In this document: positions 20,480 through 46,052 of the stretch, piece after piece
Numbering within the stretch: the stretch's first letter is position 1
How the letters are laid out: each line of letters opens with the position of its first letter
Source: an uncultured Alphaproteobacteria bacterium
GTDB taxonomy: Bacteria > Pseudomonadota > Alphaproteobacteria > UBA7985 > CAJQQZ01
DNA length: 46,460 nucleotides
Direction of reading: 5' to 3'
Assembly (NCBI GenBank): GCA_905480575.1
Contig: CAJQQZ010000033.1
Coordinates: 1-46,460, forward strand
Translations under genes and position numbers: made by a program
The notes under the pieces: generated by a model
Seen by the model: only the letters and a program-made list of their open reading frames with translations
The model's database searches: none
What the model was told of the DNA's origin: nothing

Positions 20480-20527
20480 AGAGACCATTGATAAGTGGTT
20501 CTCGACTTTGAACCGAAAGGTAATGAA

Positions 20528-20878
20528 TTGAAGGATGCTCCTTTGATCGCGTCTAACGATCCAAGACGACTGGATGACGGTGGCATTGGTCCCGGTGTTG
20601 TGCTTGAAGCCAAGCCCAAAACCAAGAAGCCAGCCATGTACAAAGTGTTGATGTTGAATGATGACTACACCCCCATGGAGTTCGTTGTTCATGTCTTGGA
20701 AATCTTTTTCAATAAAAGTGGAGAGGATGCGGCTCGTATCATGCTGCATGTTCACCAAAAGGGTGTCGGTATTTGTGGGGTTTTTACATTCGAAGTCGCC
20801 GAGACCAAAGTTACTCAAGTTATTGATTATGCAAGGAAGCACCAGCATCCATTGCAATGTACTTTAGAAAAAGAATAG
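20528..20878 (+). CDS. clpS: ClpS, ATP-dependent Clp protease adaptor
   Basis: 116 residues from TTG 20528, which has AAAGG 7 bases upstream. GTG 20495 is in frame and would add 11 residues but lacks a good ribosome site, so the start is uncertain. The ClpS core is unmistakable: [20 protein letters not shown], then [23 protein letters not shown] and the C-terminal [14 protein letters not shown]. ClpS binds the ClpA N-domain and delivers N-degron substrates; the NDDYTPMEF segment and MLHVH form the N-end residue pocket. clpA follows 35 bases downstream. Confidence 0.93.
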
Positions 20879-20913: not shown

Positions 20914-23199
20914 ATGTTATCTAATAATTTAGAACAAACCCTTCATAGAGCGATTGGTTACGCCGGTCAGCATGGGCATGAATTCTGTACGCTTGAGCAT
21001 TTGTTGCTCGCAATGATCGAAGATCCTGATGCCGCCGCCGTTATGCGTGCTTGCGACGTTGACTTGGGCGAACTTGGTCAGGAAGTTGCCGCCTATATCG
21101 AGTTTGAGCTCAAAGGCATTGTTTCAGAAACCGATGAGGACCCTAAGCCAACAACGTCGTTTCAGCGCGTTTTACAACGCGCCGTTATACATGTTCAGTC
21201 ATCCGGTCGCGACGAAGTAACGGGCGCCAATCTTCTGGTGGCCATGTTCCAGGAACGTGAAAGCCATGCTGTCTATTTCTTACAGCAACGAGGCATGGGG
21301 CGCTTGGATGCCGTTAATTTCCTCAGCCATGGTATTGCAAAAATCTCCGGTCTTTCTGAAGAACGGCTGGTGACTGGCGCGGACTCAGAGTTTGAAGAAG
21401 ATATGGGAGACAACGGCCAAGAAGCGCTGGATGCCTACTGTGTCAACCTTAATCAAAAGGCCCTAGACGGGAAGATAGATATACTCATAGGGCGTGAGTT
21501 TGAAGTTGAACGAACCATTCAAATTCTCTGCCGTAGAAACAAGAACAATCCGTTGTATGTCGGTGACCCTGGTGTTGGCAAAACTGCCATAGCCGAGGGA
21601 TTGGCGAAGCGCATTGTTGACGGCGATGTACCGGAGGTGTTGAACAGTACGATTATCTTCTCGCTTGATATGGGCGCTTTGTTAGCGGGCACGCGTTATC
21701 GCGGCGACTTTGAAGAACGCTTGAAGGCAGTCATCAATGAGTTGGATGAAGTTGACGGCGGCGTGTTGTTCATCGATGAGATCCACACCATTATCGGCGC
21801 TGGGGCTACCAGTGGCGGGGCGATGGACGCCTCTAACCTGCTCAAACCTGCATTAGCGAGCGGGTCGATGCGTTGTATTGGATCAACGACTTACAAAGAA
21901 TATCGCGGGCATTTTGAAAAAGATCGCGCACTGGCGCGCCGTTTCCAGAAGATTGACGTTGAAGAGCCTTCTGTCGAAGACACAATCAAGATCTTGCGCG
22001 GTCTGAAACCATACTACGAAGAGCATCACAAAGTTCGCTATACGGCTGAGGCTCTAAGAACGGCTGTGGAGCTGGCAGCGCGTTACATTACAGATCGAAA
22101 ACTGCCTGACAAAGCTATCGACGTGATTGACGAAGCCGGTGCTTCGCAAATGCTGGTGCCCGAAAACAAACGTAAAAAAACCATCAGCGTTGGGGACATC
22201 GAAATTGTTGTTTCCAAGATGGCCAAGATTCCGCCAAAAACGGTTTCAAAAGACGACGTCTCAATGCTGAAGTCTCTTGAGCGAGACCTCAAGGCATTGG
22301 TCTACGGTCAGGATAAGGCCATAACGGCCTTATCTTCGGCGATTAAACTCGCCCGCGCTGGCCTGAGAGAACCTGAAAAGCCCATTGGCTCATATCTTTT
22401 CTCAGGGCCGACCGGTGTTGGTAAAACCGAAGTAGCGAAGCAGTTAGCCCAGGCTCTCGGGGTCGATCTTGTTCGTTTCGACATGTCGGAATACATGGAG
22501 CGCCATTCCGTCAGCCGTTTGATCGGTGCGCCACCAGGCTATGTTGGTTTTGATCAAGGTGGTTTGTTGACGGATTCGGTGGATCAAAAGAAACACTGCG
22601 TCTTGCTGCTGGACGAAATCGAAAAAGCACACCCGGATCTGTTCAATATCCTGTTGCAGGTGATGGACAACGGACGTTTGACTGACAACAATGGCAAAAC
22701 TGTCGACTTCCGCAACGTTATTTTGATCATGACAACCAACGCAGGGGCTGCTGACATGGCTAGACCTGCCATGGGCTTCACTCAAGAGAAGCGAACTGGG
22801 GACGACGAAGAGGCGATCCAGAAGCTCTTTGCACCAGAATTCCGCAATCGACTTGATGCCAACATCGCATTCGCATCCCTTGAACTGCCGGTCGTTCAGC
22901 GCATTGTCGATAAGTTTATCATGGAGTTGGAAACTCAATTAGCTGACCGTAATATTGCTATTGAATTGAGTGACGCCGCGAGGAATTATTTGGCCAAGAA
23001 GGGATACGACCCGTTGTATGGAGCGCGTCCGCTTTCCCGATTGATTCAGGAAAAAGTGAAAAAGTCATTGGCAGATGAAATCCTGTTTGGGCGTCTGTCG
23101 AAAGGCGGAACAGTGCGTGTGGACGAAACGGACGGTGAAATGACGTTCACCTATCCTGATTCTGAGGCCACCAAAGAAAAGGCTGTTGAGACAGTCTAA
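20914..23199 (+). CDS. clpA: ClpA, ATPase subunit of ClpAP protease
   Basis: 761 residues. The N-domain (1-145) for ClpS binding is followed by a short acidic linker. AAA+ module 1 has Walker A GDPGVGKT (217-224), Walker B VLFIDEIH, and the arginine-finger segment [13 protein letters not shown]+ module 2 has Walker A GPTGVGKT (498-505), [10 protein letters not shown] and the C-terminal [10 protein letters not shown] sensor 2. There is no ClpB-type middle coiled coil. It unfolds substrates for ClpP (not in this window), acting with ClpS encoded just upstream. Confidence 0.96.
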
Positions 23200-30040: not shown

Positions 30041-31948
30041 TTAGGTAGCAGGTTCAGGCTCTGATCCAAGTGGCCCACGATTGACCGTTGGCAACGCGCC
30101 GCTGGAAGGCAGGCGAGGACCGCCGCCATGGGCATCTTCTTCTTCCGGATCAGGACGATCGATGTCTCCACCGTCTAGAACTGTCTGCACTTCTTCAGCA
30201 GTTAGAGTTTCATACTCCAACAAGGCGTCCTTCAGGCGGTGGAGACCATCCGTGTGTTTCGTCAGAATGTCACGAGCCTGTTGCATGCCATTGTCGACAA
30301 GACGGCGAATTTCTGTGTCAATCATTGCGGCTGACTCGTCAGAAATATCCTTAGCGCCCATGCCGAAGTAGCCACCATCGTCTTTGGCGTAGAATAGTGG
30401 ACCGACTTTTTCGCTGAAGCCCCATTCCTCAATCATCATACGGGCAAGGTGGGTAGCTTGGCGAATATCACTAGAAGCGCCGTTAGTGATGTGTTGCTCG
30501 CCATAGATAAGTTCTTCCGCAATACGACCACCAAACGTCATAGCTAGGACAGCTTCCATTTGGTCCTTGGTGGCAAACATGCCATCCCGTTCGGGCAGGA
30601 ACTGGGCATAACCACCAGCTTGTCCACGGGGGATGATGGTCAGCTTGTTGAGTTTATCCCTGATTGGAACATTCATACCAACGATCGCATGACCACTTTC
30701 GTGATAAGCAACCAACTCGATCTCTTCTTGGGTACGCGCTGCAGAGCGACGCTCTGGTCCCATCGTAATTTTATCTTTTGCCTGTTCGAACTCTTCCATT
30801 GTAACCACGCGTTTATTCCCGCGCGCAGCACCCAAAGCCGCTTCGTTAACCAGGTTTGCTATCTCAGCACCCGAGAAACCAGGCGTTCCTTTGGCAACTC
30901 TTTGCAGGTCAACATCAGGAGAAAGAGGTACGTTTTTCACGTGCACTTTTAGGATTTTCTCACGGCCGATTACGTCCGGCAAAGGAACTTGAACCTGTCT
31001 GTCAAAGCGTCCCGGGCGAAGGAGCGCTTTATCCAGAACGTCAGCACGGTTCGTTGCCGCTATAATGATGATGCCTTCATTGGCTTCAAAACCATCCATT
31101 TCAACCAGCAACTGATTGAGTGTCTGTTCGCGCTCTTCGTGTCCACCAGAAACACCTTGGCTACGACTGCGTCCAACGGCGTCAATCTCATCGATGAACA
31201 GAATACAAGGAGCGTTTTTCTTTGCTTGCTCAAACATGTCACGGACACGGCTTGCGCCGACACCCACAAACATCTCGACAAAGTCAGAACCAGCGATAGA
31301 GAAGAAAGGAACGTTGGCTTCACCAGCAATAGCACGGGCCAACAAGGTTTTGCCTGTGCCTGGTAAACCCACTAACAGCACACCTTTTGGGATTTTACCG
31401 CCTAGCCGTTGGAATTTTCCTGGTTCACGCAAAAACTCGACAATTTCTTCGACATCCTGCTTTGATTCATCGATGCCAGCAACATCTTCGAAGGTCACTC
31501 GGTCTTGGTTGTGCGTCAGGAGCTTAGCCTTGGATTTTCCAATCCCCAGGCCGCCGCCGCGGCCGCCTTGCATCTGCCTGAAAATAAAGATCCAGGCGCC
31601 GATCAGCAACAGGGTGGGCAACAGGTAGGTCAGCAAATCACTGATCCCCATTGAATCGTCACGAGGCTCGGCTCTAACCGTTACATTGTTTGCATCCAGT
31701 TTTTCCATCAAACGGGGATCATCAGGCATGTATGTCTGGTACTTTTGTCCGTCTTTAGTCGTAGCTGTGATGTTGCGCTCGACAATCTTGACTTCTGATA
31801 TTCTGCCACTTTCAACATGACCGATGAAGTCAGTGTAGGCCTCTTCAGACTGGGGTAGTTGCTGTTGGCTGTTGTTAAAGAAATTAAACAAAGCAAAAAG
31901 CAGTACGATTGCAACGATCCAAACGATTGCATTGCGAGAGATATTCAA
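30041..31948 (-). CDS. ftsH: ATP-dependent zinc metalloprotease FtsH
   Basis: 635 residues. Two transmembrane helices (about 7-24 and 105-123) flank a periplasmic domain. The AAA+ module has Walker A GLPGTGKT (194-201), Walker [12 protein letters not shown] (249-259) and SRH with RPGRFDRQ. The zinc protease motif is HESGH (His416, Glu417, His420). It degrades membrane proteins, RpoH and some ssrA-tagged proteins. The start is TTG, with AAGGA 8 bases upstream. It lies 88 bases downstream of tilS. Confidence 0.97.
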
Positions 31949-42455: not shown

Positions 42456-43292
42456 TTATTGGATTGACTCCAGTGCCCATTCTGCGGGTTGCTGTTGGCT
42501 TAGTCTACCACCAAGTCGAACCGGTTCTACCCTCGTGCTCAAACCTGTCGTGTCGTCGGTTTCGACGTAGAGACCGCAAAGTGTTGCTTCCTCGCTGGCG
42601 GGCGAAAGGCGGTCCGTTGGCAGCTTCTCTGTGAAACGTTTCACTGGTGTTTCATTATTGAAACCAATCACAGAGTTGTAGTCACCAATCATACCGAGAT
42701 CAGTTTGGTAGGCGGTGCCATACGGGAGGATTTGATGGTCGGCGGTCGGAACGTGGGTGTGGGTTCCAACGACCATGGAGACCTTGCCGTCTAGATAATG
42801 CCCCATCGCTTGACGTTCACTAGAGGCTTCGCCGTGAACGTCGACAATGACCGCGTGAATTTGGTTGCCTAATTTGTAAACGGAAACCAGCTTTGCAACA
42901 GTCGCAAAGGGATCATCGAGTGGGTCCATGAACACACGGCCCATGAGTTGGATTGTTAGGACCCTTTTTCCTGACGGCGTCTCAGTGACGTAGTACCCTC
43001 GGCCTGGCGTGCCATCTGGATAGTTGGCCGGACGAACAATGCGCCGATCTTGCTCAATATGGGAAAGCATCTCTCGCTGATCCCAGCTGTGATTTCCAAG
43101 CGTGATTGTGTCGGCTCCAGCTGCAAAGAACTGGTCCGCGATGTCCGCTGTCAAACCAAAACCGCCAGCGGCGTTCTCTCCGTTCAGCATGACATGGTCT
43201 AAAGCCACAGCTTTCCGGATCTTAGGCAGCCAAGTCAGAACTGCTTCACGACCAGACCGGCCAACGACGTCTCCCAAGGCTAAAAGCTTCAT
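42456..43292 (-). CDS. YmdB-type metallophosphoesterase (TIGR00282 family)
   Basis: 278 residues. Two-metal phosphoesterase motifs are in order: LGDVVGRSGR (first Asp), NGENAAGG, LGNHSWD, DVHGEASSE and VGTHTHVPTAD. The Bacillus relative YmdB hydrolyses 2',3'-cAMP. The role in Alphaproteobacteria is unknown. Its ATG overlaps the stop of the cyclo-ligase gene by 4 bases, so the two are translationally coupled. Confidence 0.9.
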   Translation of the reverse strand: MKLLALGDVVGRSGREAVLTWLPKIRKAVALDHVMLNGENAAGGFGLTADIADQFFAAGADTITLGNHSWDQREMLSHIEQDRRIVRPANYPDGTPGRGYYVTETPSGKRVLTIQLMGRVFMDPLDDPFATVAKLVSVYKLGNQIHAVIVDVHGEASSERQAMGHYLDGKVSMVVGTHTHVPTADHQILPYGTAYQTDLGMIGDYNSVIGFNNETPVKRFTEKLPTDRLSPASEEATLCGLYVETDDTTGLSTRVEPVRLGGRLSQQQPAEWALESIQ

Positions 43293-43864
43293 GTGAATTC
43301 CAAGATTTCTTTTTCTGTAATCAGAAAGTCAAGCTTCTGATCGGTTTTTTCAGTAGGCACGTTGTCAACTTCCTGAACTGAGTAAGCTAGGCCGGCTGTT
43401 ACAAGTGGCTTTGTGGTTTTAATTTCCTCGATGGAACGGTCATAGAAACCGCCGCCATATCCAAGGCGGTAGCCGTTTCGATCGAAAGCCAAAAGCGGTG
43501 AAAGGATGAGGTCGGGCACCAGTTGTGGGGAACTTTCAACGGGCGTCATGGCTTTGTACGCCCCCTCTAACATCTCCGTTTCTGGAGTCCACTGTCGAAA
43601 AATCAAGGGCTGAGCGTTTCCAACCACAATAGGAAGACAGATTTGGTGACCTGCCTTATAGAGCTTGTGGATCAGAGGGACGGTGTTTACTTCGGTTTGG
43701 ATGGGCCAGAAGCAGGAGATTATCTCTGCATTCTTTAAAGCGGCGCTGGAACTTACGAGCTCCATCAAATCAAACGATGCTCTTTCGCCGGACGCTTTAT
43801 GGAAATCTCGGCGAATAGCACGCATCTCTTTGCGCAGAGCCTGTTTCTCTTCAGCTAAATTCAA
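43289..43864 (-). CDS. fau: 5-formyltetrahydrofolate cyclo-ligase
   Basis: 191 residues. Family motifs are KQALRKEMRAIRRDF at the start, ISCFWPIQTEVNT, and the ATP-binding LSPLLAFDRNGYRLGYGGGFYDRS. It converts 5-formyl-THF to 5,10-methenyl-THF. The start is TTG with GGA 8 bases upstream. A 6S RNA lies directly upstream on the same strand, as in many Proteobacteria where 6S RNA and ygfA/fau are co-transcribed. Confidence 0.93.
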   Translation of the reverse strand: MNLAEEKQALRKEMRAIRRDFHKASGERASFDLMELVSSSAALKNAEIISCFWPIQTEVNTVPLIHKLYKAGHQICLPIVVGNAQPLIFRQWTPETEMLEGAYKAMTPVESSPQLVPDLILSPLLAFDRNGYRLGYGGGFYDRSIEEIKTTKPLVTAGLAYSVQEVDNVPTEKTDQKLDFLITEKEILEFT

Positions 43865-43884
43865 AGTTTCATTCCAAGTGTTTC

Positions 43885-44043
43885 GAAGAGCCAGACCGCC
43901 GTTGACGTTGATTGTCCTCCAAGGCCTGCAAAAGCAGGTGGGCGCCGCGATACTAGGACCACGATCCTAACAGAGACAGCTCCCTAGGAAATCATTATTG
44001 GCCCCGGAGACATATGCTTGCCTGACCTGCGGCCCAGCTCAAG
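43885..44043 (-). ncRNA. ssrS: 6S RNA (SsrS)
   Basis: On the minus strand a 12-bp closing stem pairs GAGCTGGGCCGC (44040-44029) with GCGGTCTGGCTC (43899-43888), counting G-U pairs. Inside, GTCTCCGGGGCC pairs with GGCCTTGGAGGAC with one bulge, leaving an open central region with small hairpins (for example CCTGC/GCAGG), the 6S architecture. The length of about 155-160 bases and position directly upstream of fau match alphaproteobacterial 6S RNA. It would bind RNA polymerase holoenzyme as a promoter mimic. Ends are estimated from the stem. Confidence 0.75.
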
Positions 44044-45021: not shown

Positions 45022-45177
45022 GTTGTTTTCCTAGCGAATCTATATGTGCGTCCATCTAAACTAATTGCCGCTAAATGTGGAGTCTAGCTTTCCAATAGAT
45101 GCCAAAGAGATTCAAAGAGTTTTAAATTCCAAAGAATCTCCCTATATAGAAGGTGTGGGTAACCACTATGGCGATAA

Positions 45178-45460
45178 ACGGATTAGGTAATAAAGTGTAT
45201 AGGACCCGGGGGCAGTGCCCGGCGCCTCCACCATTTTCTTCTGACTATGGGGGCGAAACAGGATCGACTTGCGCTGAAAGCTTCTCTTTTTGCCCGGCAT
45301 TGTACCACCGTTATCGGGCTGTTTTTATAGTTGCAAATGATAACTATGCTCCGGTTGCTGTAGCTGCCTAACGGCGGTTCCACACCGAAACTAAATTCCT
45401 AGGCCTTAGCCGGTCTAGGTGGGGGCTTGGGGGGCACCTAGCAACAGAACGTCCCCCATA
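45178..45460 (+). ncRNA. ssrA: Circularly permuted two-piece tmRNA
   Basis: The acceptor piece comes first: T-arm CCGGG/CCCGG (45206-45222) with 7-base loop, then CGCCTCC and an encoded CCA (45231-45233). A 15-base intervening segment (45234-45248) is followed by the coding piece starting GGGGGCG (45249-45255), which pairs with CGCCTCC to rebuild the acceptor stem. Pseudoknot 1 stem is GCCCG 45292-45296 with CGGGC 45315-45319. The tag frame 45333-45371 encodes ANDNYAPVAVAA and a TAA stop. A second pseudoknot uses CTAGGTG/CACCTAG (45415-45441) and CCCCC 45453-45457. The permuted form is the alphaproteobacterial lineage. Outer ends are approximate. It rescues stalled ribosomes. Confidence 0.95.
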
Positions 45461-45497
45461 AAAAGCTGCAAAAAGCTTGATATGGGAACAGGTTAGA

Positions 45498-46052
45498 ATG
45501 TCAGACGGGGCTGGGACCGGAACACCGAATGATTTGTTGGGGTATGACGAGCTGGTAGAGAATGCTCTGCTTGCTGTTGTTAGAACTTGCCTTGAGCGGA
45601 CCGCAAAAGAGGGTCTTCCAGGCGAACATCATTTCTACATCAGCTTTGATACAGAGCATCCGGAAGTACAGTTGTCTGACGAACTACGGGAAAAGTACCA
45701 CCCGGAAATGACGATTGTTCTTCAGCACCAGTTTGAAGATTTAATCATTGACGATCAGGGTTTCTCGGTTGGCCTAAGTTTTGGTGGTTCAAACCACTTT
45801 CTTGTTATCCCATGGAGCGCTGTCACAGCCTTCCTCGATCCATCCGTTAACTTTGGCCTGCAATTTCGTTATGGTTCTGCTTCTATGGCAGAAGACGAAA
45901 CAGCCACTCTGGCTCCCGTCGAATCGGATGCGCCTCTTACTCTCGATGTGAAAGAAAACAACGTTGAGGCTATCGATGGAAATCAACCTTCAGGTGAATC
46001 GCCTGAAGATGATTCAAACATAATTGCTCTTGATCAATTCAGAAAAAAATAA
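45498..46052 (+). CDS. sspB: SspB, ClpXP adaptor for ssrA-tagged proteins (alpha type)
   Basis: 184 residues from ATG 45498, with CAGG 5 bases upstream; TTG 45477 is in frame but poor. It matches the alphaproteobacterial SspB: YDELVENALLAVVR start, HHFYISFDTEHPEVQLS, MTIVLQHQFEDL, FSVGLSFGG, IPWSAVTAFLDPSVNFGLQF, an acidic linker, and the C-terminal ClpX-binding tail IIALDQFRKK. It tethers AANDNY-type tags to ClpX. It begins about 40 bases after the tmRNA, so tag and tag-receptor are neighbours. Confidence 0.95.
   Translation: MSDGAGTGTPNDLLGYDELVENALLAVVRTCLERTAKEGLPGEHHFYISFDTEHPEVQLSDELREKYHPEMTIVLQHQFEDLIIDDQGFSVGLSFGGSNHFLVIPWSAVTAFLDPSVNFGLQFRYGSASMAEDETATLAPVESDAPLTLDVKENNVEAIDGNQPSGESPEDDSNIIALDQFRKK

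Follow-up and report, generated by a model that had tools for sequence, protein, structure and literature searches.

Does a bacterium that carries the gene for its tmRNA directly before the gene for the adaptor that reads the tmRNA tag transcribe the two genes as one unit? The question is raised by a 46,460-nt stretch of DNA from an uncultured alphaproteobacterium (contig CAJQQZ010000033.1; hereafter the window), in which a permuted ssrA gene is followed on the same strand by sspB. SspB is a ClpXP adaptor for tmRNA-tagged proteins. The arrangement contrasts with that of E. coli, where SspB likewise delivers ssrA-tagged proteins to ClpXP but is encoded in the sspA-sspB operon, with sspB following sspA and lying away from ssrA. 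The features of the locus are as follows.

45116-45459 (+), permuted tmRNA gene ssrA including its promoter region (Rfam RF01849 alpha_tmRNA, 252.5 bits, E 2.4e-72)
45120-45148 (+), likely ssrA promoter: TTTTAA (45120-45125), 17 nt, TATATA (45143-45148), matching in position the CTTTCAA/CTATATT of relatives
45140-45462, permuted tmRNA as read by ARAGORN, with tag ANDNYAPVAVAA
45152-45233 (+), acceptor (tRNA-like) piece, CCA at 45231-45233, 5′ end placed by analogy with S. meliloti, whose piece measures 82 nt
45170-45371 (+), Rfam tmRNA_permuted match
45234-45248 (+), 15-nt intervening segment, flanked by CCA and by the acceptor-stem 5′ arm GGGGGCG (45249), predicted to be removed in processing
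45249-45459 (+), coding (mRNA-like) piece, 5′ end from acceptor-stem pairing and 3′ end from the Rfam match
45333-45371 (+), tag frame GCA...TAA, encoding ANDNYAPVAVAA
45428-45458 (+), last tmRNA hairpin, 8 pairs with a 15-nt loop, then TAAAAAG without a U-tract
45460-45497 (+), 38-nt ssrA-sspB spacer, free of promoter-like or terminator-like sites
45498-46052 (+), sspB, 184 amino acids, ATG at 45498 and stop ending at 46052 (Pfam PF04386, E 9.1e-43)

Both genes belong to their families by a wide score: ssrA reaches 252.5 bits against a gathering score of 50 for RF01849, and sspB 146.4 bits against 27 for PF04386. Each is single-copy, with one RF01849 match and one SspB gene in the genome, and thyX lies upstream of ssrA in divergent orientation. 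The order is that of a permuted gene, with the CCA 5′ of the coding piece and a tag frame that ends in AA and a stop codon. In these respects the gene resembles the two-piece tmRNAs of Caulobacter, Sinorhizobium and Orientia, with which it shares the permuted layout, the acceptor piece first, a short intervening segment and an ANDN tag. Cleavage of the transcript into two paired pieces has been reported for S. meliloti (PMC2873474) and Orientia, and the predicted lengths of 82 and about 211 nt are consistent with the 82- and 214-nt pieces mapped in S. meliloti (PMC2873474). Rfam, ARAGORN and Pfam thus agree with the preliminary description, which had placed a permuted ssrA directly before sspB with a gap of about 40 bases; the measured gap is 38 nt. 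Position 45178, where that description began, falls within the acceptor piece, ssrA and its promoter beginning some 60 bases earlier.

The SspB encoded in the window keeps 40 of 41 well-conserved alignment columns and, compared by sequence only, is about 50% identical to most members from the class. Relatives with a solved structure are chains 2nys, 2qas and 2qaz; these alphaproteobacterial SspB structures (2qas/2qaz, and 2nys from Agrobacterium) have the same domain and share the C-terminal LDxFRKK with the window. The SspB C-terminal tail tethers the adaptor to ClpX, and the window protein ends in ALDQFRKK, a predicted tail that is matched in 84 of 98 complete relatives.

A survey of relatives had been set beforehand as a test of the pairing. 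A class-wide draw of 289 Alphaproteobacteria genomes contained 275 with tmRNA and 266 with SspB, and both genes could be located, among the matches listed, in 105 genomes, a sample biased towards high-scoring matches. In 80 of them sspB follows ssrA on the same strand, with 44-297 nt from the ssrA 3′ end to the SspB domain, and in 14 further genomes the order is the same with a gap within 5 kb; the rest, again among the matches listed, comprise 4 with the genes farther off, 1 with them on opposite strands and 6 with them on different contigs. Spacers of adjacent loci, measured from the tmRNA end to the start codon, range from 7 to 242 nt; most Microvirga fall at 16-20 nt, and one locus (L021) has just 7 nt. 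The window's own taxonomic order is small; in seven of its other genomes ssrA and sspB can be placed on a single contig. The gap, taken from the tmRNA match to the SspB domain, is short (93-240 nt) in four of these and about 390-550 nt in two, of which one has a long upstream frame and the other a partial tmRNA match; in the seventh, 2.3 kb lies between the genes. The Caulobacter group also includes a case of separation, a Brevundimonas genome (L126) with about 1.3 kb between ssrA and sspB. Adjacency is thus the majority state in the class survey and is kept by most sister genomes within the order, so that one outcome named in the preliminary description as refuting, adjacency missing from relatives, did not occur. 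With the same strand, a short gap and conservation in relatives, ssrA-sspB has the gene arrangement expected of an operon. The pairing is old and widespread in Alphaproteobacteria and more than chance. Since both components are well-known families, the arrangement is conserved but ordinary for the class.

Conservation of this kind could also be no more than ancestral gene order, neutral and without regulatory meaning, with any read-through into sspB incidental. Separation of the genes in 25 of the 105 genomes (among the matches listed), with neither gene lost, fits such an account and indicates that adjacency is not essential. It is harder to reconcile with the persistence of the pair across most families while its outer neighbours vary. 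The longest open frames flanking the pair fall into many clusters on both sides, a count inflated by spurious frames, yet several large unrelated clusters recur, so that the pair outlasts the surrounding synteny. Together with the joint change of tag and adaptor described below, this leads us to regard neutral order as quite improbable.

If the two genes form one unit, a promoter should stand before ssrA rather than before sspB. Across 157 loci, the -35/-10 pattern is enriched upstream of ssrA, with a mean best score of 8.18 against 6.84 for shuffled sequence (z 18.5). The window's own ssrA promoter matches TTGACA/TATAAT weakly and is not flagged by that rule; it is assigned by comparison with relatives. 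Before sspB the pattern is absent from the 47 loci with spacers of up to 60 nt (z -1.5), and a mild excess appears in the 43 loci with spacers of 61-260 nt (z 4.0). A separate sspB promoter, which the preliminary description had named, together with a lack of read-through, among the observations that would count against it, leaves no recognisable signal in the window or in the short-spacer loci, and spacers of 7-20 nt in several species could hardly accommodate a further promoter or terminator.

The mild excess at longer spacers fits the main rival account, in which sspB is expressed mainly from its own promoter in the 3′ part of ssrA or in the junction, possibly as a leaderless or nearly leaderless message, while ssrA ends or is trimmed at its last hairpin; adjacency would then reflect inherited gene order or co-location only. 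For ZMO1504, a DUF1321 (SspB-family) gene of Zymomonas mobilis, a single predominant transcription start site is listed, with a 0-nt leader (PMC7566282, Table 3). Judged from this start site, an independent sspB promoter may exist in at least some members, which keeps the rival account alive. The T-rich tail that follows the last hairpin at several adjacent loci agrees with the same account, whereas the hairpin of the window, which has no U-tract, does not. Taken with the missing promoter signal and the very short spacers, these observations make an sspB transcribed chiefly on its own unlikely.

The last tmRNA hairpin carries the conserved CAACAGA in its loop, and its six inner pairs show covariation across 68 distinct hairpins, a result in which only the variety of pair types is informative: the hairpins were found by pairing, so the fraction paired carries no information. 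In many relatives this hairpin is followed by ACUUUU, a T-rich, terminator-like tail, which gives it the appearance of a terminator. In the window's genus UAAAAAG replaces that tail. The bases after the window hairpin are TAAAAAGCTG, with 2 T in 10, and the tail common to the window and its congener is UAAAAAGCUG; the absence of a U-tract in this genus is clear. The preliminary description had seen no evident terminator between the genes, and the generic scan, with a loop limit of 8 nt, indeed lists none. Generic terminator and promoter scans and our own terminator scan (loops of at most 8 nt) proved uninformative, the terminator searches being blind to the last hairpin because its loop is 14-15 nt.

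In their place we located the hairpin by its CAACAGA loop and counted T over the first ten bases beyond the stem. This count averages 3.48 at adjacent loci (n = 67) and 4.42 at separated ones (n = 24), and is lower at adjacent loci than at separated and SspB-less loci together (p 0.0018, computed without a tree). Family means show the same tendency (3.39 adjacent versus 4.70 separated, p 0.0006, also without a tree), but in families with both states the difference runs in the expected direction in only 3 of 6. Nor was the weaker U-tract expected with a shorter spacer found among adjacent loci (rho -0.21, p 0.10), a lack of correlation that suits neutral gene order, and in Microvirga, where sspB begins 17 nt further on, the tail is still T-rich. 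The evidence for a lower T count is moderate, and as a class-wide rule it is not established. The junction at 45454-45487 can itself fold, as CCCAUA..AAGCU-GCAAAA-AGCUU..UAUGGG near the sspB start, and this fold, for which L062 has a near-identical sequence, would compete with the last tmRNA hairpin. We do not claim a spacer hairpin, since the region reaches a z of just -1.8 and covariation could not show in a pair of near-identical sequences.

Taken together, we favour the reading, at a probability of roughly 0.6, that ssrA and sspB are one unit driven by the ssrA promoter and sharing a transcript; judged from the sequence, the two genes are probably co-transcribed. RNA polymerase would start at the ssrA promoter at about 45120-45148, and much of the transcription would run past the last tmRNA hairpin into sspB because, we propose, that hairpin has no U-tract. 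Enzymes of the tRNA-processing type would cut the precursor into acceptor and coding pieces, and trimming of the 3′ end of the coding piece would release an sspB mRNA with a short leader. The tmRNA would then add (A)ANDNYAPVAVAA to stalled proteins, and SspB would bind the ANDN end while its C-terminal tail tethers the tagged protein to ClpXP. The roles of tmRNA, SspB and ClpXP are established knowledge, and the genes, their conserved order and the link between tag and SspB are observed here; what we infer is that the two genes share a transcript, that it is processed in this way and that their dosage may be coupled. A stronger version of the two-gene unit, in which sspB lacks any dedicated promoter and its mRNA arises as a 3′ by-product of tmRNA maturation, while tag and adaptor co-evolve as one module, is more tentative, and we lean somewhat against it. 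If it holds, the supply of adaptor would be set by the amount of ssrA transcription that passes the final tmRNA hairpin.

A link between the products themselves, which the preliminary description had drawn from the AANDN part of the tag, gains from comparing tags with adaptors. The tag begins with ANDN at 132 of 135 loci in the main survey and SspB-query sets, nearly all with a clear SspB, and in only 2 of 13 tags from genomes without an SspB detectable by PF04386 (Fisher p 2e-12, not tree-corrected and drawn from about seven families). The other 11 tags from SspB-less genomes begin ANES (three times), ANQN, ANNN, AKNN, ADDN, AEDN, AKSD, AKRD and ANDD (SspB-less loci L156-L158, L220, L221, L224, L225, L230, L233, L235, L245 and L246, mostly off ANDN). 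One of the two exceptions, G157, may have lost SspB recently or merely seem to lack it, since another member of its family has a weak SspB; some genomes with a low-scoring SspB retain ANDN. It is as if the ANDN motif were kept mainly for SspB.

A second case comes from a sister family within the order to which the window belongs. Its tag is ANNYVAPR(A/V)ALAA and not ANDN (tags at L204, L206 and L207), and its SspB (L215-L218 and L207:1956-2471) keeps 19 of 41 conserved columns and alters 22, with the HHFYISF and LQHQF motifs gone and the tail LDAFRRK retained. To judge from these alignments, tag and adaptor have diverged together in this family. Correlated loss and correlated divergence thus point to a functional link between the products. 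Elsewhere, in genomes whose SspB match is weak (L240, L241 and L242 of one family, L228 and L239), ARAGORN predicts unusual basic tags, some of them 23-30 amino acids long with many R, N and K residues; the odd long tags of family f90 are likewise putative.

The preliminary description had also pointed to clpS-clpA and ftsH as other consumers of tagged or N-degron proteins. All three genes are present in the window:

20495-20878, clpS, recognised by eye from sequence
20914-23199, clpA
30041-31948, ftsH

They contribute nothing to the ssrA-sspB reading: they lie 15-25 kb away, and their presence is probably coincidental. A second pair of a stable-RNA gene and a protein gene lies nearer, 6S RNA at 43884-44043 (-) followed by 5-formyltetrahydrofolate cyclo-ligase at 43289-43864 (-). 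It resembles the E. coli 6S RNA-ygfA dicistron, in which a stable RNA gene and then a protein gene share one transcript; the E. coli 6S RNA and ygfA products are not known to act on each other's output. Our literature search, which did not extend to the key SspB paper of Lessner et al. 2007, found no report of ssrA-sspB adjacency, of co-transcription or of tag/SspB co-loss; adjacency or co-loss may already be on record in that paper.

Whether the tag receptor is made in step with the tag-writing RNA is a question that can be tested across the class, and regulatory coupling of tag and receptor supply is offered here as a testable hypothesis. Of more interest as a lead is that tag and adaptor have diverged together; such correlated changes supply natural variants for how SspB reads the tag.
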